Positions 28,201 through 64,000 of a DNA stretch of 64,000 bases are shown piece by piece. The first letter of the stretch is position 1; each line of letters opens with the position of its first letter. The translations under genes were made by a program, and so were the position numbers. The notes beneath the pieces are model-generated. The model saw nothing but the letters and a program-made list of their open reading frames with translations. It had not been told where the DNA came from and made no database searches. Origin of the DNA: Tachypleus tridentatus (taxonomy: Eukaryota > Arthropoda > Merostomata > Xiphosura > Limulidae); assembly GCF_004210375.1 (NCBI RefSeq), contig NC_134837.1, positions 159,877,310 through 159,941,309 on the forward strand. Direction: 5' to 3'.

Positions 28201-31200
28201 GTGGGGTCAGTGGGTACCGAAATTTTTTCTTTTTCCTATGGATCCTCTAAAAAATGTAAATAAAATTGTAAAAAAACAGTCACTGGGTAAGCGACCACGT
28301 CTTCAATACTCAAAACAGCAATCTTCAACATCAGTAACACACGTACCTCATTTTCTTATATTACATTCTCTTTCAAAAAAACCTTTAGGGCAAATGTCCC
28401 TTTTTTTTATTCAAAAGGGACTAGAGGGACTTGCTGGCTCTCCAAAGTCAGTAAAGAAACTTCGATCTGGTGACATATTGGTTGAAACATCCACATCCCA
28501 ACACAGTGAACTCCTCTTGAATTCAAAGGCAATTGGGAATATACCTATTGAGGTTACACCCCATGCTACCATGAATTCTTCATGAGGAGTTATTGTTGAA
28601 AGGGATTTGAAGAACGTTCCCGAGTCAGAGATTCTCGCTGGTCTCTCCACTCAAGGAGTTTCTGCAGTGAGGCGCATCTCCACTCGCAAAGATGGAGTTA
28701 CACTGCCAACAAATACCCTCGTTTTGACATTTACTTCACCACGTGCACCTGCCACCATCAAGGCAGGTTATCTCATTTGCAGGGTTCGGCCATACATACC
28801 AAACCCTCTTCGATGTTTCCAATGTCAGACCACTAAAAGACATCATGTCGTGGTTCCCTGATATGTGCTCGTTGTGGAGACAAGGACCACGATGCCTATG
28901 ACTGTGACATGAACCCACATTGCGTAAACTGCAATGGTTCTTACCCCTCTTACTTTCATTCTTGCCCAAAATGGTTGGAGGAAAAAGAGGTGCAGCGTTT
29001 GAAAACGACACATAACATTAGTTATCCTGAGGCTCGGAAATTGCTGTCCACAACTCCATCTCGGACATATGCTGCTGCACTTCATTCCACAACTACAGTG
29101 GGAGTTCAGACAGATCTCTCTGTGCCTCCAAGAGAATCGTTTTCAAAACAAATGAAAAGCCTTTTGACCTCCATGGTTAAAAAGGTTGATGAATCGACTT
29201 CCACACCCATCTCTGTTCCTCCCATACCTTCCAACAAACCTCAAAATCCACGTCCTTCAGTTTCAAATACAGGCATTTCTTCTGATACATCTTTTTCTCC
29301 CACCACAAGAGACAAAACAATTATTCGTTCGCGTCCTCAGTCACTGGATTCCCCTTCCAATAACAAAAACCTGCCCACCCGACCCAGAGCAGGATCCATG
29401 GAGGTTGATAGACCTCCTCCGACTAAAGACAGTAAAGAAAAAAGACATGGTCGTAAACCGAAGGGTTCTCCAGCCACTTCGCCTACCCGTTCTTAAAAAT
29501 GGCCACCTTGATACAATGGAACTGTTGAGGTTTACGTTCTAATCTGGATGATATCAAAACGCTGATTGCTTCCTACCATCCTGTTTGTCTTTCTTTACAA
29601 GAAACATTTCTCAAAACTGCTGATACTGTCTCCATTCGGCAGTTTTCTCTGTACAGAAATGACAGGTTGTGTGATGGTCGAGTACATGGAGGGGTGGCAC
29701 TGTTGGTTGATCAACATGTGCCCCCACCCTGTCTTTGTCACTCAACACACTCTTGGAGGCTGTAGCCATCCGTGTTTCCTTGGGTCATACCATCACTGTT
29801 TGTTCTCTGTACCTGTCCCCTGGAGAGACATATGATCAATCAGATCTTGATGCTCTCGTTGAACAATTGCTATCTCCATTTCTAATCCTAGGGGATTTTA
29901 ATGGACATCATCCCCTCTGGGGAAGTGCTATTATTGATGGGAGGGGCCGATCTGTAGAGCGGATGCGCTCTGATCACAATCTTTCTCTTTTCAATACTGG
30001 TTCTTCCACTTACTTTCATGCACCTAGTCAGTCCTTTACAGCTATTGATCTCTCAGTTTGCTCCCCTTCATTATTCTCCCATTTTTCATGGAGGGTTGAC
30101 AGTAATCCACTAGGCAGTGATCATTTTCCTATCCTTTTGAGAGAGACTGGCCGTGGTCGATGCCACCCTACCCGCGTGCCCTGGTGGAAGCTGGATCAGG
30201 CAGACTGGTCCACTTTCACTGCTCTCGCAGATCTTGATCCTGCCATCGTAAATCAGCCATCAATAGACGACTGTGTAGCAGCGGTAACTGACTGTATTAC
30301 ACATGCAGCTGCCCAGTGTATTCCTAAAACCTCGACACGTTTTCCACGATATCCTCGTCCGTGGTGGAATCCTGCTTGCCACTTAGCACAGAAGGCTCAA
30401 AAGCGGGCCTGGGATACTTTTCGTAGATATCCCACACTTTCAAACCAGGTTGCTTTCCAACGGGCCCATGCACATGCTAGGCGGGTAAGACGTCAAAGCC
30501 AGAAGGAATCTTGGATTAAGTTCACAACCAGCATATCTTCTACCACCAGTTCCAATAATAATATTGGACAGGATTCGAAAGGTCAATGGGCACTACAATT
30601 CTGTCCCCCTCTCGATCTTACTCTCTGATGGTCAGGAGGTGACTGATGCTCGGAACATCACTAACACTCTAGGTGAAAGCTTTTGCCGGGTATCTAGCAC
30701 TTCTGCTTGTTCCTCCACCTTCCTGGCCATCAAGACTCAGGCAGAGTGATCTTGAAAAAGGAAAGACTCTTTCCTTTCAAACTGACTGTTTCTTTAACTA
30801 TAATTGTCCCTTTACCCTGGTGGAACTAAAAATGGCCCTTCATCGGTCTGCCAGTACGTCTGTTGGACCTGATGATATTCATTATGACATGCTGCACCAT
30901 CTATCTCCTGCTTCTCTTGATGTCCTTCTGATTGTTTTCAACCGGATCTGGCAGGAGAATTTTTTCCTGATGCCTGGCACCAGGCTATTATTTTACCTTT
31001 CTCTAAGCCAGGGAAAGATCCCAAGATTCCTTCAAACTACCATCCAATTGCTTTGACGAGCTGTCTCTGTAAGACATTAGAAAGGATGGTTAATGCTCGT
31101 CTTGTTTGGTTCCTTGAATCAAAAAACCTCCTCTCGCCCACCCAGTGTGGGTTCTGTCAACAGCACTCCACCACAGACCACCAAATTCATCTTGAAACAT

Positions 31201-34200
31201 CTATCAGAGAAGCCTTTCTCAACCGCCAACATCTTGTATCAATATTCTTTGACATAGAGAAGGCTTACGACACAACATGGTGGTATGGCGTTTTACGAGA
31301 CCTCCATACATATGGGTTACGTGGCCATCTACCCATGTTTATTAAAAATTTTTTAATGGACAGGAGATTCCAAGTTCGTGTGGGTTCGACACTTTCCCGT
31401 TCTTTTGTACAGGAACTTGGAGTCCCTCAAGGCTGTGTATTGAGTGTTACACTCTTCAGTATAAAGATAAATGCCATCACTGAACAACTCCCTCTCACTG
31501 TTGCGAATGGGCTGTATGTCGACGACTTTCACATCTCATGTCAGTTATCAAACATGAGATATATTGAGCGGCAACTACAAACCGCCCTCAATTGTGTACG
31601 GAAGTGGACTCTAGCGAGCGGCTTTAATTTCTCTCTCTCAAAACTGTATGCATGCACTTTTGCCATCGACGGGTATTCACCCTGATCCTGAACTTCATAT
31701 CGGTGAAGTTTTGCTGCCAGTGGTCCCGAGACCAAGTTCTTGGGGCTTATCTTTGATCGTAAACTGACCTTTATACCACACTTAAAGCAGCTTGGGTCAA
31801 ATGCACAAGAGCACTGAACATCCTCCGTGTTCTTTCTTCTACCAGTTGGGGGGCAGATCGCTGTTCAATGTTAAAGGTATATCGTGCTCTTATTAGATCG
31901 AAACTCGATTATGGATCAATGGTCTATGGCTCTGCCAGACCCTCGGCCTTAAAGATGCTGGACCCCATTCATCACCAAGGACTTCGACTCTGCACTGGGG
32001 CTTTCCGTACCTCTCTAGTTCAAAGTATATACATTGAATCTCATGAACCTTCTCTACACCTTCGCCGTTTGCAACTATCTTTACAATATACTTCGAAACT
32101 TCATTCCTCACCAAAGCATCCCACCTGGAAATGTGTTTTTCTTCCTCGGTGGGCAGTACTTTTTCAGAACAGACGATTTGTCATTGCTCCGTTTGGCCTT
32201 CGCATCCGGGCGCAATTGGATGAATTGGGTCTGTCCTTGGATAACATTGCAGATTCCACAGGGCGGCCCATCCCACCATGGCTTATTACAGCCTCCAAAT
32301 GTGTTCTTTCTTTCAGTCACCTAAAAAAGGCAGATACTCCAGATTGGAAGTACCGTCTTTTCTATTCAATGAATATCTTTCAAACAATCATTCAGTTCCC
32401 ATTTATACAGATGGTTCCAAATCAGGTAATTCAGTGGGCTCTGCTATGGGTCAGTAGTTGCACGCAGAATCCCTTCTACAGCTTCTGTGTTCACTGCTGA
32501 ACTGTATGCCATATCTCTTGCCCTGGATCATATTGCAGCTGAGCAGTACTCCAACTGCACTATTTATACTGATTCGCTTAGTTCTATACTTGCCTTGGAA
32601 TCGCTACACGTCAGCTCACATCCTATTCTCGCTGATATTCGAAACCGACTGGCCCATTTCTCATTAGCAGCTACTTCAATCCAGTTTTTCTGGATACCAG
32701 GCCATTTTGTTATTCGCGGGAACGAGCTTGCAGACATAGCTAAATATGTCTGCTTCAGCACCATCACTCCTATGCCTATTCCATACATGGACTATGGTGT
32801 TGTCTTCAAGGCTCAGCTCCGTGCCAGCTGGCAGTCCACTTGTAGTGAGCAACGTGACAACAAACGTTTTCAAATCAAACCCAAAATTGGACTTTGGCCA
32901 TCTAGCTTCCGTAAAGTTCGGAAGGAGGAAGTTGTTCTCACTAGGCTACGCATTGGTCACAGTTTTTTAACTCATCATTTTCTTTTATCTGGAACTGATG
33001 CACCAATGTGTAGTTTGTGTAACACTCAAATCACTATCAGCCACGTTTTACTTTCTTGCCATCGTTACAATTCTCAACGACGGCAATATTTTAACATATT
33101 TTTTCCCAGGGTCAGTCTGTAACATTGGACAGAGTTATTGGTGATGGTGACTCTGTCCAACTTGATAATGTTTTAATTTTTTAATGGCCATTAATCTTTT
33201 TAATCTCATTTAAGTGTTGCATATTTATTCATTACACCTTTTTAATTGTGGTTCCTTTTTCACAGTTTTAATCTCTCTCATTCAATATGACATTGGACAA
33301 TGGCCAGAACATTAAATAACTCGACACCAGGACTGGAAAGGCCAACTTCAAGTGACTAACGCTACTGTTTGAACTACTCGTTAGTCGTCTTGGCGAGTTG
33401 TTATTATACTTTTGCTGCATATCATTTCACACTTTTACTACTTTACTTTTTAGTTCTGGCCATATTGACTCATAACCCAGAACCAGGACTGGAAAGACCA
33501 ACTTCAGGTGACTGACGGTGGTTTTTATACTTACCTGTTAGTCTTCCTGGCGGGTTATGATCATTACCATTCTGCTACAGGTAGTCCTTTACAACTTTGT
33601 TGACTGGATGTCACCATTGGTTTTTACACCATTTTCTGTTTTAATTGCTGTTTTGTTTTTACCTTCATTTACTTTTACAAATTTTACTCCATTTACTTGA
33701 CTTTATCTTTTTACTGGACATTTGACTACTCATTGTTACAATTTTGCTATGTATCTTTTAAAACTTCTATTCTTTTACATTTTGATACTTGTTGCTATGA
33801 CACATAACCCGGAACCAGGACTGGAAAGACCAACTTCAGGTGACTGACGGTGGTTTTGAACTTACCTGTTAGTCTTCCTGGCGGGTTATGATCATTACCT
33901 TTTTGCTAGAGTAAATACCTTACAACTTCTTATACTCTGCCTTCTATCTTAACGTTGTAGACTAGGTGTCAACATTGGTTTTATACTTTTTTGTTTTACC
34001 TTCTTTTCCATTTATGTCTATTACTACATTTATTTATTATTTTTTTTTTACATTTTTATTTTACATTTTTACCAAATGTCTGGCGCAGATAGCCTCGCTG
34101 CTTTGTGCCATAAAACACTAAATTAATCAATCATAATATTGAATCCAGTGAACATTTAGAGATATTTGGGAATAGTTCATTTGTAGTGTAGAATATGAAT

Positions 34201-45208: not shown

Positions 45209-45361
45209 TGTAATCCTATATTGTTATAAAGTTAACAATCAAAAGTAACAAACAAATTCAAATTATTAACAAGATTATTTTACCCATTTTGTAATCCTAT
45301 ATTGTTATAAAGTTAACAATCAAAAGTAACAAACAAATTCAAATTATTAACAAGATTATTT
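45209..45361. repeat. Identical 72-bp direct repeat, period 81 bp
   Basis: 45209-45280 and 45290-45361 are identical by eye, both starting tgtaatcctatattgttata and ending aagattattt, with a 9-base spacer. The identity means a very recent duplication or an assembly artefact. Confidence 0.9.
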
Positions 45362-58034: not shown

Positions 58035-61000
58035 CTGAAAGCTTTAAAGATTCAGAATGTAGAAAACTAAGCAAGTCAGTATAAATAGTGCAGTTTGAGT
58101 ACTGCTTAGCTTCTATGTGATCCATAGCAAGAGAAATGGCATACAGTTCAGCAGTGAACACAGAAGCTGTAGAGGGGATTCTGTGTCCAACCACCAAACC
58201 ACAATAAACAATGATAGAACCCATACAGTCACCTGATTTCGAACCATCTGTATAAATAGGAATGGAAAAATAGTTTAAAAGATGTTCAGCAAATAACAGA
58301 CAGTATTTCCAATCAGAAGTGTCTGCTTTTCTCAGATGACTTAAAGACAGGTCACATTTGGGGACTGTAAAAAGCCATGGTGGGATGGGCTGACCAGTGG
58401 ATACAGCAATGTTATCCAAGGACAGACCCAATTCATCCAACTGTGCCTGGATACAAAGGCCAAAAGGAGCAATGACAGATCATCTGTTCTGAAAACATAT
58501 GACCCATTGAGGAAAGAAAACACAATCCCAGGTGGGATGCTTTGGTAATGAAACAAGTTTTGAAGCATATAATAAAGACAGTTGAAAACTGTAGAGGTGC
58601 AAAGAAGGTTCATGAGACTGTGTATAAGCTCTGAACTGGGAAAGTGCAGAAAGCCCCAGTACAGAGCTGAAGTCCTTGATGATGATTGGGGTCCAGCATC
58701 TTTAAGGCCAAGGTCCTAGGAGAGCGATAGACCAGTGATCCATAGTCAAGTTTCAATCAAATAAGAGCATGATATATCTTTAGCATAGAACATCGATCTG
58801 CTCCCCAAGTGGTGGAAAAGAGAACACGGAGGGTGTTCAGTGCTCTTGTACATTTGACCCGTAGCTGCTTGATGTGTGGTATAAAGGTCAGCTTATTGTC
58901 ACAGATAAGTCCAAAGAACTTTGTCTTGGGGACCAAAGGCAGCACAACTTCACTGATAAAGAGTTCAGGATCAGGGTGAATACCCTATTGAGGACAAAAG
59001 TACATGCCAGTTTTAGAGAGAGAGAGAAGTTAGAGCCATTTGCTAAGGTCCACTTCAGTAAACCATTGAGGGCAATTTGTAGCTGCCACTCAATATACCT
59101 CATGTTCAACAACTGGCATGAGATGTGAAGGTCATTGACATAGAGCCCGTTTACAACAGTAAGAGGAAGTTGTTCAGTGACAGCATTAATCTTTACACTG
59201 AAAAGTATGACACTCAAAACAGTCCTGAGAGACTCCAATTTCCTGTAGAAAAGAATGAGAAAGTGTCAAACTCACACAAAGTTGGAATTTCCTGTCCACT
59301 AAAACATTAATAAAAATGGGCAAATGGTCACATAACCCATATATATGGAGGTGTCTCAAAATGCCATACCTCCATGTTGTATCATAAGCCTTCTCAATTA
59401 CAAAGAATATTGATACAAGATGTTGTTTGAGAAAGGCTTTTCTGATTGATGTTTCAAGTCAGATCAGGTGGTATAATGGTGGAACGCTGTCATCAGAACC
59501 CACACTAGGTGGGCAAGGAGGTTGTTTGATTCGAGGAACCAAACAAGATGAGCATTAACCATCCTCTCCAAGGTCTTACAGAGACAGCTCATGAAAGCAA
59601 TTGGATGGTAGTTTGAAAGAATTTTGGGGTCCTTCCAGGCTCAGAGAAAGGTAGGACAACACACTGGCACCAAGCATCAGGAAAAACATTCTCCTGCCAG
59701 ATCTGGTAAAAACAATCAGAAGAATAACAAGAAAAGCAGAAGATAGATGGTGCAGCATTTCATAGTGTACATCATCAGGTCCAACCAATGTACTGCCAGA
59801 TCAATGAAGGGCCAGTCTGAGTTCCACCAGTGTAAAGGGAAGATTATAGTCATAGAGAGAATCAGCTCAGAAGGAAAGAGGTGATTGCTCTGCCCGAATC
59901 TTAATGGCTGAAAACGTGGAAGAAGAAGCGCAAATGCTAGATACCTGGCAAAAGTTTTCACCTAGAGTATCGGCGATGTTCCGGGTATCAGCTACTTAAT
60001 GGCCATCAGAGAGTAAGATCAAAAGGAGGAAAGAATTATATTGCCCACTGACCTTTTGAATCTTGTCCCTTATGATTTTGGAACTGGTGATAGAAGATAT
60101 GCTGGTTGTGAACTTAATCCAAGATTCTTTCTGGCTTTGACATCTTACCCACCAAGGATATGCACAGGCCTGCTGGAAAGCGATGCAGTGCGAGAGTGTG
60201 GGATACCTACGAAAAGTATCCCAGACTTGTTTTAGAACTTTCCATGCCATGTGTCAAGCAAAGTTCCACTGCAGACGAGGATATCATGGAAAACGTGTAA
60301 AGGTTTTAGAAATATATTGAGCAGCTGCTTCTATAATACAGTCAGTTACTGCTGTCACACAGTCTTCTATTGATGGCTTACAAATGATGGCACAATCAAG
60401 TTCTGTGAGAGCAGTAAAAGAAGGCCAGATTGCTTGATCCAGCTTCCACCTGAACATGCGAGTCGGGTGGCATTGACCACGGCCAGTCTCTCTCAAAATT
60501 ACAGTAAAGTGATCACTGCCTCGTGGATTATTGTCAACCCTCCATGAAAAATGGGAGAATAGTGAAGGGGAGTAAATTGAGAGATCAACAGCAGTAAAAG
60601 ACTGACTAGGTACATAAAAATAAGTAGAAGAACTGCTATTGAAAAGAGAAAGGTTGTGATCAGAGAGAATAAGCTCTATGGAGCAACCCCTCCTATCAAT
60701 ATCAGGATAGGAAGTGTATCTTGGGATTTGCTGGAATGTATGTTAGGAACAGAGATGGGTATTGAAGTTGATTCATCAACTTTTTTAACCATGGAGGTCA
60801 AGACTTTTCCTTTGATTTGAGAATAATTCTTTTGGAGGCACAGAAAGATATGTCTGCACTCCCACTGTAGTAGTGGTACAAAGTGCAACAGTACATGTCC
60901 AAGATAAAGTGGTTGACAGCAACTTTTGAGCCTCAGGGTAAGTAATGTTTTGAATGATTTTCAAATGTTGCACCTCTTTTTCTTCCAACCATTTAGGGCA

Positions 61001-61105
61001 AGAACAAAAGCTGGACAGCTGGGAGCTATTGCAATAATGAAATGAGGGTCCGTTTCACACTCATAGGCATCATGGTCCTTGCCACTGCAGTGAGCACATG
61101 TCAAG
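58035..61105 (-). mobile_element. Second copy of the I-type LINE, truncated and internally deleted
   Basis: Read on the minus strand it follows the element at 27796-34130: zinc-knuckle remnants (CAH..GKDHDAYEC near 61080), EEKEVQHLKI (60985), endonuclease C-terminal half, RT (with YVND instead of YVDD near 59150), [20 protein letters not shown] (about 58890), and RNase [10 protein letters not shown] (about 58240). It stops inside RNase H after YTDLLSF near 58050. It lacks the 5' UTR, most of ORF1, the end of ORF2 and the whole 3' UTR. Relative to the first copy about 690 bases between ORF1 and the mid-endonuclease are missing (junction near 60710). It is in the same orientation as the Rab33-type gene, in its intron. 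Confidence 0.88.
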
Positions 61106-61439: not shown

Positions 61440-62310
61440 ACATCATTTTATTAATCTTCACATTCAATACAACAGAAAATTAGTTAATGCTTTGTGTGTC
61501 CTCCTTTTGCTTCAGTAACTGCAGGCCATCTTTCAGGCATTGTTGCAACATATTTACTCAAAGTCCCTCTGGAAATTTACTCTATATATCTCTAATATAC
61601 TCTTATAATGTTTCTTTCAAAGTAGCTTTCAATTTCTAAAGTTTCTGATCTATCAAACACAAGATCTGTTCAATATGATAGAGATTAGAGCTCTGTGGAG
61701 GCCATTGCATTATTTGAATGACTTCAACAGCTTCTTTCTTAGCTAAGTAATTTCTGCACAAGTTGGATAAGTGTTTTCCAATAATACACAAACCACTGGG
61801 TATATCATGACAAATCAATATCTGACAGTTCTTGCATTGGTCCATTTTGTCACCTACTTTGCAAATATTTCCTACAACCTTCACAGAAAAACACTCCCAA
61901 ACCATCAAGCTGCCTCACCCATGCTTCATGGTAGGTACTATGCATTAAGATAAGTATCATTTGAAAACCTTTGTTCTGTTGGACTTACAACCTAAGCTTT
62001 GAAACAAATATTTTAAACTTGGACTCATCTGTCCATAACACCCTTTTCCAATCATCAGCAGTCCAGATTTTGTACTTTTTAACAAATTTCAGTCTACTGA
62101 TAATACCTAGAGATTGAAGTAAAGGTTTTTTAACTGTAATATTACCAAATATTCCATTTCACTATGTAACAAAATTTGTACTTTTTCTTGTTCCTGAGCA
62201 GAAAGTGTTACTTCCCAATTGCTTATACCTAAAGTAAATGGAAAAGACCTATTTTTCTCTTCAATTTTTTTTTTTGTGACCTGGGTAATGAAATTTTCAT
62301 ATTTACCCAT
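61440..62310 (-). pseudogene. Tc1-like transposase relic
   Basis: The minus strand gives MGKYENFITQVTKKKIEEKN (62310 onward, the usual Tc1 N-terminus), then KKYKIWTADDWKRVLWTDES near 62075-62020 with the first catalytic Asp, MVWECFSVKVVGNICKV (61908 onward), SNLCRNYLAKKEAV, and WPPQSSNLYHIEQI near 61690. The last block is the WPPQSPDLNPIE motif holding the final catalytic Glu. The segment with the second Asp (DNDPKH in the family) is missing between GKH and SNLC, so the DD34E triad is incomplete. Many stops. Inverted repeats were not found. Confidence 0.75.
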
Positions 62311-62311
62311 T

Positions 62312-62453
62312 TTCTAGAACATTCCAGATAGATTCAGTGCTGAGTAGCTGATAGAGAATTTTCTCAAACTTACAGGAATTTTCAAGAACTTTCTAAAATG
62401 TTGTAGAACTTACAAGAATTTTCAAGAACCTTTTAGAATTTTCTAAAACTTTC
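62312..62453 (+). promoter_or_regulatory. Heat-shock-element-like array
   Basis: A three-unit element TTCTAGAACATTC lies at 62312-62324. From 62356 to 62453 GAA triplets stand at 62356, 62376, 62386, 62406, 62416, 62426 and 62436, and TTC triplets at 62361, 62381, 62391, 62421, 62441 and 62451. All are in one 10-bp register with GAA and TTC alternating every 5 bases. Heat shock factor binds alternating nGAAn units. GAATTTTCAAGAACTTTC at 62376-62393 is a perfect four-unit site. That it works as a promoter is inferred. Confidence 0.65.
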
Positions 62454-62461
62454 CAGAGTAA

Positions 62462-62469
62462 TATATATA
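62462..62469 (+). promoter_or_regulatory. Candidate TATA box
   Basis: TATATATA lies 8 bases after the array and 79 bases before the ATG at 62548. Transcription would start about 30 bases on, in the cactcatcacttcac segment. Confidence 0.5.
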
Positions 62470-62547
62470 CAGGGACTCATCACTCATCACTTCACTTTAG
62501 TTCTAGCTGCCTAAATAAACACATAGGCCTATCTGATTTTATCAGAG

Positions 62548-63427
62548 ATGGCATCAAGAAGCTGCAAGCATTCTCGAGATGCATTCTGCTATGTATGTGG
62601 CCAATTTATCAAGACAAGAGCAAAAAAGTACTCTGTGACAGCATCTGCTAAAATGTGTGAAGCATACAAGGCATATTTCAGCATGCCTGTCGGGGGTCAA
62701 GACAAACCCTGGGCACCTCATTTTACCTGTGAGTACTGCAAAAAAACTCTAAAAGGTAAGACGGACAATTTTTGCATGTTTGAATAGTAAGATTTTATAT
62801 TATACAAATTTCAGACCTTTTAAAATTTAAATATCTAATGGACCTCTAGAAGGTGTTGTTCCCACCATTGCACATAAAGTTGGTCTTATGAAACAGTTTG
62901 TCACAGCTCTTGATAAAGAGTCTACAGCCTTCAAGTACCTTTCAGACTTCTTCCCTAAGCTGTCTGAGGCAAAGCTCAAAGCTGGTGTCTTTGTTGGACC
63001 ACAAATAATGATCCTGTAGTGCACAGAATTCCCCAATAAGCTCAGAAGGAAGGAAGAAAGGGCTTGAGGCAGTTTTGTCACAGTGATTTGGGGCTTCTTG
63101 GACAATCACAAAGTTGAAAAATATGTGAAACTGAATGAGGCTATGATAAGAAACTACAGCAAAATGGGTTGCAGGATGTCCCCGAAAGCCCATATCCTTG
63201 ACGCTCATCTTGATAAATTCAAGGAGAACATGGGAGCATATTCAGAGGAGCAAGGTGAGCACTTCCACCAAGATATACTAGACTTTGAATGCCACTACCA
63301 AGGAGCATATAATGAAAACATGATGGGAGACTATATTTGGGGACTGACACATGAAAGTGATTTACATTACTGTCACAATGTTAAAAAACTACTCACTTCT
63401 AAACATTATTGTATAACTTCAGTATAA
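62548..63427 (+). pseudogene. Internally deleted gene of a repetitive, uncharacterised element-like family
   Basis: ATG at 62548 (cagagATGG context) opens 79 residues with HSRDAFCYVCGQF and HFTCEYCKKTL, two Cys pairs that look like a small zinc-binding domain, ending in TAG at 62785. A second coding stretch from about 62850 reads VLFPPLHIKL, shifts frame, then GLMKQFVTALDKES, FFPKLSEAKLKAGVFVGPQI, a stop near 63018, and GCRMSPKAHILDAHLDKF, EEQGEHFHQDILDFE and MMGDYIWGL up to 63424. From memory this N- and C-terminal pair belongs to a repetitive arthropod/cnidarian protein family of roughly 500-plus residues with no assigned function; the middle is missing here. A GTAAGA donor at 62756 and a tctag acceptor at 62850 could splice the two parts. 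Dead or non-autonomous copy most likely. Confidence 0.5.
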
Positions 63428-64000
63428 ATACATGTAAATCTTGATTCATATGTTGTTTAATTCAGACATTATGTAAATGAAAATGTGCAAATTTGCTCGT
63501 TTTTACATAAAAAATAGATTAATTTCAAAATTTCATTATCCAGGTCAAAAAAGTAAAGTCTTAAGGGAATAATGGTCATTTTGTGTACTTTTACAACATA
63601 AGCAATTAAGAAATAACACATACTATTCAGGAACAAAATTTGTGTTACATAGTGTTTTTATTGAGTCTTCCTAATAATGTAGATCTGGACATTTTTCTGT
63701 TGTTTGGTACATGGTCATTTATCTCATGCTTGAAATCAGTGGCAGTCTTCATTATGTCCTAAAGACTGCATAAATGAAGAAAATATTAGTATCGTTAAGT
63801 TTAGACATTCTGCCTCTTCCTTTCCTATGTTTTAATTTACCTATCTTGGTCTAACAATCTAGGGTGTACTTGACAGTATTTGAGGAACACATCAAGTTTA
63901 AAGCAACTTGTCAGAGAGTCCAAACAGCATTATATAAAGCTTTTATGTGAACTCTGCTCTACTGACAATTCTCTATACTTTTCAGGCTGTGGCATGACAA
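63428..64000. other. 3' flank of the deleted element-like gene, nothing recognised
   Basis: AT-rich, no gene or repeat end could be placed. Confidence 0.5.

Follow-up and report, generated by a model that had tools for sequence, protein, structure and literature searches.

Mobile elements with heat-shock elements (HSEs) in their regulatory regions are an already known kind, to which Helitrons and ONSEN belong. The transposase promoter of Helitron1_CE of Caenorhabditis elegans contains clusters of HSEs, some of them in tandem; it is bound by HSF-1 and induced by heat, and HSE-bearing Helitron copies are spread through the C. elegans genome (PMC6927752). In ONSEN/COPIA78 and other heat-responsive COPIA families, HSEs can arise from the duplication of a smaller proto-site, and they were gained by several families of one genome (PMC5059998). 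In Cryptococcus, TCN3 and TCN12 are heat-mobilised LTR retrotransposons with putative HSEs in their LTRs (PMC12810828).

The locus described here, from the horseshoe crab Tachypleus tridentatus, resembles Helitron1_CE in being a DNA transposon whose transposase promoter contains HSEs. It differs from each of these elements. Helitron1_CE is a rolling-circle element, and Helitrons have neither TIRs nor target site duplications, whereas the present transposon has TIRs and 3-bp duplications, carries a 20-slot array plus a TATA box, and resides in a chelicerate. ONSEN/COPIA78 shares with it the mobility and the gain of HSEs in several families of one genome, but those are LTR retrotransposons of plants in which some four or five motifs adjoin one another, and here an animal cut-and-paste element has many more units. 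TCN3 and TCN12 are fungal LTR elements with one or two putative HSEs, and their movement was measured. By analogy with these HSE-bearing elements, the array should work as an HSF promoter. No title describing a native HSE array in a TIR transposon of an animal was among those listed in the open-licence literature searched; what looks new from these searches is that such arrays occur in TIR transposons of two superfamilies, how long the array is, its hsp70-like position close to the TATA box, and the fact that the layout recurs within a single animal genome.

HSE array, TATA box and transposase start in the window

The window, i.e., the whole stretch of 64,000 nucleotides that was analysed, contains the following features:

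62157..62159 (right half 63655-63657), no strand: target site duplication TTT, 3 bp
62160..63654, plus strand: TIR transposon copy, internally deleted, with CACTATGTAACA ends, delimited by self-alignment of the ends
62160..62316, plus strand: left TIR, about 70% complementary to 63508-63654
62312..62324, plus strand: separate HSE TTCtaGAAcaTTC, on the inner margin of the left TIR, in a register unlike that of the array
62356..62453, plus strand: HSE array of 20 GAA/TTC slots, 13 exact (16/20 in the majority sequence of 35 rows)
62462..62469, plus strand: TATA box TATATATA, 8 bases past the array end at 62453
62548..62755, plus strand: transposase exon 1 (MASRSCKHSRDAFCYVCGQ..., CxxC...CxxC), with an inferred splice donor GTAAGA at 62756
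62846..63427, plus strand: what is left of the C-terminal transposase half, interrupted by stops (HKVGLMKQFVTALDKE..., HILDAHLDKF..., SEEQGEHFHQDI)
63508..63654, minus strand: right TIR, with no HSE array beside it

The array consists of 20 five-base slots (62356, 62361 ... 62451), of which 13 are exact, alternating GAA or TTC. This count and the interval 62356-62453 had been given in an earlier note on this DNA, and both proved right to the base. When 20 Markov-1 sequences of 64 kb each were scored in the same way, the best slot score was 4 in five runs, 5 in 14 runs and 6 in one run, and the 12 top-scoring starts of the window itself (13 down to 9) all overlap the array. With all 64 triplets and their complements compared at the same 5-base step over 62346-62455, GAA/TTC was the best pair with 13, followed by AAA/TTT with 8. 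The longest contiguous run of exact alternating nGAAn units in the window copy is four, an HSE-type promoter calling for three or more. Chance or base composition as the origin of the array was rejected on the basis of these simulations and of reversed-pattern controls, which gave 0.

Tandem Repeats Finder also detected the array, at periods of 10, 20, 30 and 40 with 65-80% match, and hence the two descriptions, HSE array and degenerate tandem repeat, both apply to it. The separate HSE at 62312-62324, likewise announced in the earlier note and present there as TTCtaGAAcaTTC, reads TTCCAGAACATTCCAG in the majority sequence of the aligned copies. It lies in register 2/7 modulo 10, whereas the array is in register 6/1, so that it is out of phase with the tandem repeat. 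The caveat that a simple 10-bp repeat might merely resemble HSEs thus holds as to the periodicity, but it does not account for this off-register HSE or for a score far above chance. The distance of 8 bases given there between array and TATA box is correct, and so is the ATG of the transposase gene at 62548, downstream of both. A search of the window with Rfam at gathering scores gave no match.

The transposon and the conservation of its array

The gene at 62548-63427, which had been described as element-like, does belong to a mobile element, but the feature is part of a larger one. The array sits in a 1,495-bp inverted-repeat transposon (62160-63654) with CACTA ends. With 62300-63427 as query, the window's own genome (205 contigs, 2.17 Gb) yielded at least 53 matches; of 6,136 first-look candidates 40 were scored, and 39 other copies were fetched from these matches. 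Counting the window copy, the ends fell within 3 bases of those of the window copy in 32 of 40 copies on the left and 34 of 40 on the right. Of the 26 copies, the window's among them, in which both ends could be placed, 16 have matching 3-bp flanks, and 14 of these 16 are TTA or TAA. The window copy carries CACTATGTAACA at either end, as do most other copies, with some changes. Fifteen of the 40 copies have an extra 202-1,045 bp between the bases matching 62835 and 62836, a segment missing in the window copy. In three-frame translations of seven fuller copies the frame resumes past an intron-like stretch and is longer, with stops or frameshifts in all seven. The window copy is therefore an internally deleted, degraded member of a large family, and without the middle part no whole transposase can be made from it.

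The superfamily of this transposon was then considered. The CACTA or CACTG terminus that characterizes CACTA/EnSpm elements is found as CACTATGTAACA at both ends, and the 3-bp target site duplication of that superfamily is also present. PIF/Harbinger elements generate 3-bp TWA duplications too, so that a 3-bp duplication is not unique to CACTA/EnSpm. Transposase_21 gave no Pfam match up to E 10 with three protein pieces of one fuller, damaged copy, nothing in Pfam scored above cut-off with the transposase pieces, and one 286-residue piece found no relative in the PDB up to E 1. The motifs FIDSS, GDFK, CYLC, HILDAH and SEEQGERF were seen by eye in the translations of fuller copies, with no profile or structure match; the DDE-type signature of the CMC group is D, D, C(2)C, H(4)H, E. 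Since Transposase_21 was not detected, we call the family CACTA-ended and do not file it as a member of CACTA/EnSpm. It agrees with that superfamily in its CACTA ends, in the CACTG left end of a sister family (see below) and in the 3-bp duplications, and differs from it in having no Transposase_21 match in the pieces searched. Animal TRC elements are described as having other features: they begin with CCC and make 2-bp duplications, unlike the transposon family studied here (PMC1636069). No relatives were found in viral_contigs or in the prokaryote genome_contigs.

The surroundings contain other repeats. On the minus strand, 61450-62159 and 63655-64000 resemble, by eye, a Tc1/mariner relic interrupted by the transposon, although Pfam gave no support for this in these flanks. 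Two LINE-like copies in inverted orientation, about 80% identical, occupy 28859-32589 and 58059-61103, the first with a reverse transcriptase (PF00078) and a sub-threshold endonuclease match. An 81-bp unit is repeated in tandem at 45209-45361 (1.9 copies, 100% match).

To learn whether the array and the TATA box are kept, as the earlier note had recommended, the other copies were aligned. An array of at least 7 slots was kept in place by 34 of the 39 other fetched copies, some in shortened form; absence of the array from other copies, which would have spoken against a promoter, is limited to the remaining five, in which the array stretch is deleted, broken or rearranged. The alignment has 35 rows (34 copies and the window; L014, L017, L019, L027 and L043 were left out), and the near-identical pairs L013/L015 and L026/L038 were counted separately. 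In the majority sequence 16 of the 20 slots are exact (GAA 10/10, TTC 6/10), and the rows have a median of 13 exact slots, the lowest being 7 (L016 and L018). The contiguous HSE run has a median of 4, with a minimum of 3 and a maximum of 8. TATATA occupies the aligned TATA columns in 34 of the 35 rows, the window included, with L025 as the exception. Among the 33 copies in which array length could be measured, 20 have the modal length, 8 differ from it by 1-4 bp and 5 by at least 10 bp; these five larger changes (+30, +20, -10, -30 and -50) are each a multiple of 10. The array is confined to the 5′ end of the transposon: the left-side array region scored 6-10 of 12 slots in the 28 copies whose left end was measurable, and the terminal 330 bp on the right never exceeded 2 of 12 in any of the 34 copies with that end placed.

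Among the copies, deviations are about as frequent in the GAA/TTC core (90/1,617, or 5.6%) as in the spacer (85/1,669, or 5.1%). Free drift of GAA/TTC, the other finding that was to count against a promoter, is therefore seen insofar as core and spacer drift alike, but the majority sequence (16/20) is a better HSE array than most copies. For this reason we read the equal drift as neutral decay after insertion, with no support for selection within the copy set. When the five 20-bp units of the majority array were compared with each other, GAA differed at 0 of 30 positions and the other positions at 12 of 70 (p 0.016); GAA plus TTC differed at 4 of 60 versus 8 of 40 for the spacers (p 0.06), the repeats not being independent. 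This comparison is suggestive of a constraint on GAA, not clearly on GAA plus TTC.

Related families, piggyBac elements and host hsp70 promoters

A sister transposase family was found with a homologue as query; the best 150 of 8,131 first-look candidates were scored, and the match runs unbroken across the exon 1/2 junction. The start of the sister family is 40% identical (29/72) to exon 1 of the window copy, and its left end, judged by eye and from the left end only, is CACTG (CACTGCACAACAA). None of 20 sister-family copies (L077-L096) has a three-unit HSE in the 650 bp upstream, and in 16 of the 20 there is a TATA match between -139 and -168. Since the array is missing in 20 of 20 sister copies, it looks like a family-specific gain and is not needed by every such element.

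The array is not restricted to the CACTA-ended family. Among the first 50 listed places of the genome with six perfect units, 23 have a different sequence, of piggyBac type by eye. The transposase of this piggyBac family A matches DDE_Tnp_1_7 with E 1.1e-31. In the two copies measured, the order is an HSE cluster, then CCTATATATATAGG, then an ATG 37 bases from the start of the TATA box. Ten of ten further motif-picked places were also family A. To reduce bias, 11 of 116 matches were chosen by their transposase, full length and same-family look, and not by the motif: all 11 are family A, the 500 bp fetched for each of them contain 3-7 three-unit HSEs, and 10 of the 11 have a TATA match. PiggyBac elements insert at TTAA, and on the one side examined the homology of two family A copies begins at TTAACACTCCTACG. 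The family A places are L050, L051, L053-L062 and L097-L107 (e.g., C1:55585700-55587700); some piggyBac matches in the genome have long open frames.

The 1 kb preceding the domain match held no three-unit HSE in 8 of 9 other piggyBac places, and these eight may represent fewer than eight families (L109-L111 look alike). The ninth place (L114 and L117, C3:76824922-76826940) defines family B, whose transposase matches PF13843 (DDE_Tnp_1_7) with E 5.8e-69 and shares 40% protein identity (97/241) with that of family A. In the one copy seen, an HSE cluster is followed by TATATAAA and then by an ATG. The HSE-to-TATA stretch is the only DNA similarity found between families A and B. Any two HSE arrays will align by virtue of their shared motif, so that the array of family B may be a retention or a second gain.

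The host hsp70 promoters were analysed for comparison. The coagulogen gene is present in this genome, with the C-terminal 90 residues of its product matching chain A of PDB 1aoc at 90 of 90 positions, which marks the host as a horseshoe crab, most likely Tachypleus tridentatus. The hsp70 genes include a tandem cluster, with promoters of the inducible type, at C8:132.82-132.87 and 133.77-133.79 Mb, with a spacing of about 8.8 kb. In four of four promoters fetched, which are tandem duplicates and hence not independent, TTCGAGAAACTTCGAGAA precedes TATAAA by 13 bp, with another HSE about 115 bp farther upstream. No three-unit HSE was found in about 750 bp fetched for each of two multi-exon hsp70-family genes. 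The transposon thus shares with the host hsp70 promoters the contiguous HSE units shortly upstream of a TATA box, and differs in length: hsp70 has four contiguous units, whereas the transposon has 20 slots (16 exact in the majority), five times as many.

Proposed function of the array and its spread in the genome

The proposal of the earlier note, an hsp-type promoter attached to a mobile gene family, is supported by the retention of the array in 34 of 39 copies, its repetition in two piggyBac families and its match to host hsp70. We consider it quite likely that the array is a DNA-transposon promoter, gained in front of the transposase TATA box, that responds to HSF and drives transposition under heat or stress. 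From the motif, its order and its spread we infer the following course. A cut-and-paste transposon would have gained a long HSE array directly upstream of its transposase TATA box. Upon heat or other proteotoxic stress, host HSF trimers would bind along the array, many side by side, and RNA polymerase II would start about 30 bp past the TATA box. Since the transposase would be made in a burst, the family would become mobile during host stress, with whatever benefit this may bring to the element. Heat stress, then, probably turns the transposon on.

The same sequence evidence would also fit real HSF sites whose purpose lies in the germline, where HSF active in unstressed germ cells or early embryos would yield inheritable insertions. 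HSF has roles in the germ line, and HSF5 reportedly acts in male meiosis. An hsp70-like syntax with a TATA box suits a burst promoter, and nothing else here separates the two; we regard a germline purpose as possible but rather unlikely.

Two further explanations deny that the motif is an HSF site at all. CACTA-type elements can have subterminal repeat arrays, and an array that starts just inside the left TIR and whose larger length changes are in 10-bp steps could serve the element's own transposase, as in maize En/Spm, with a mere likeness to HSEs. Against this, all 34 copies with a placed right end are free of an array on that side, and the array is missing from all 20 fetched copies of the sister family, whose left end is CACTG. 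PiggyBac elements, although their transposase is of a different type, carry the same motif in the same place, and the motif is an HSE that fits the host hsp70 promoter; binding by the transposase is accordingly very improbable. An AT-rich 10-bp simple repeat with a chance likeness to HSEs and no regulatory role would explain the clear 10- and 20-bp periodicity and the similar decay of core and spacer among copies. It would leave unexplained the 13 of 20 slots against 4-6 in simulations, the out-of-register HSE at 62312, the same layout in piggyBac elements, and a majority sequence better than most copies, and we hold it to be highly unlikely.

The HSE-TATA junction (the last HSE unit plus the TATA box) occurs 2,124 times with up to 3 mismatches, and its reversed control 0 times. 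Six perfect alternating units gave 218 places and seven gave 183 matches, with 0 in each control; a single array may yield more than one match in these counts. Of 21 perfect-run places fetched, 8 are the CACTA-ended transposon, 12 are piggyBac and one is unexplained. Tentatively, we propose that heat-shock control was gained repeatedly, by one CACTA-ended and two piggyBac families of two superfamilies, and that their copies, deleted ones included, scatter HSF promoters, so that HSF might control both transposition and nearby host genes. If true, this would be an animal case of stress-timed cut-and-paste transposition through host HSF sites, appearing more than once in one genome, and HSF promoters derived from mobile elements, some two thousand of them or more, would lie across the horseshoe-crab genome, with consequences for how its heat response is read. 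The old question of whether transposons exploit host stress responses would become directly testable, and HSE-bearing and HSE-free related families in one genome provide matched controls.

The unexplained place (L052, C1:137282711-137282738) has six perfect HSE units, surrounded by AT-rich DNA in which other HSE-like pieces occur. Its sole match to the transposon is 52 bp of the HSE region, and no gene or transposon was recognised there. Long HSE runs are clustered within 100 kb at C2:8.667-8.741 Mb and C2:55.652-55.736 Mb, which have the look of segmental duplications. The one place fetched from each of these clusters is a transposon copy (L048 and L049), and a reading frame that by eye resembles a C-type lectin adjoins the L048 copy.
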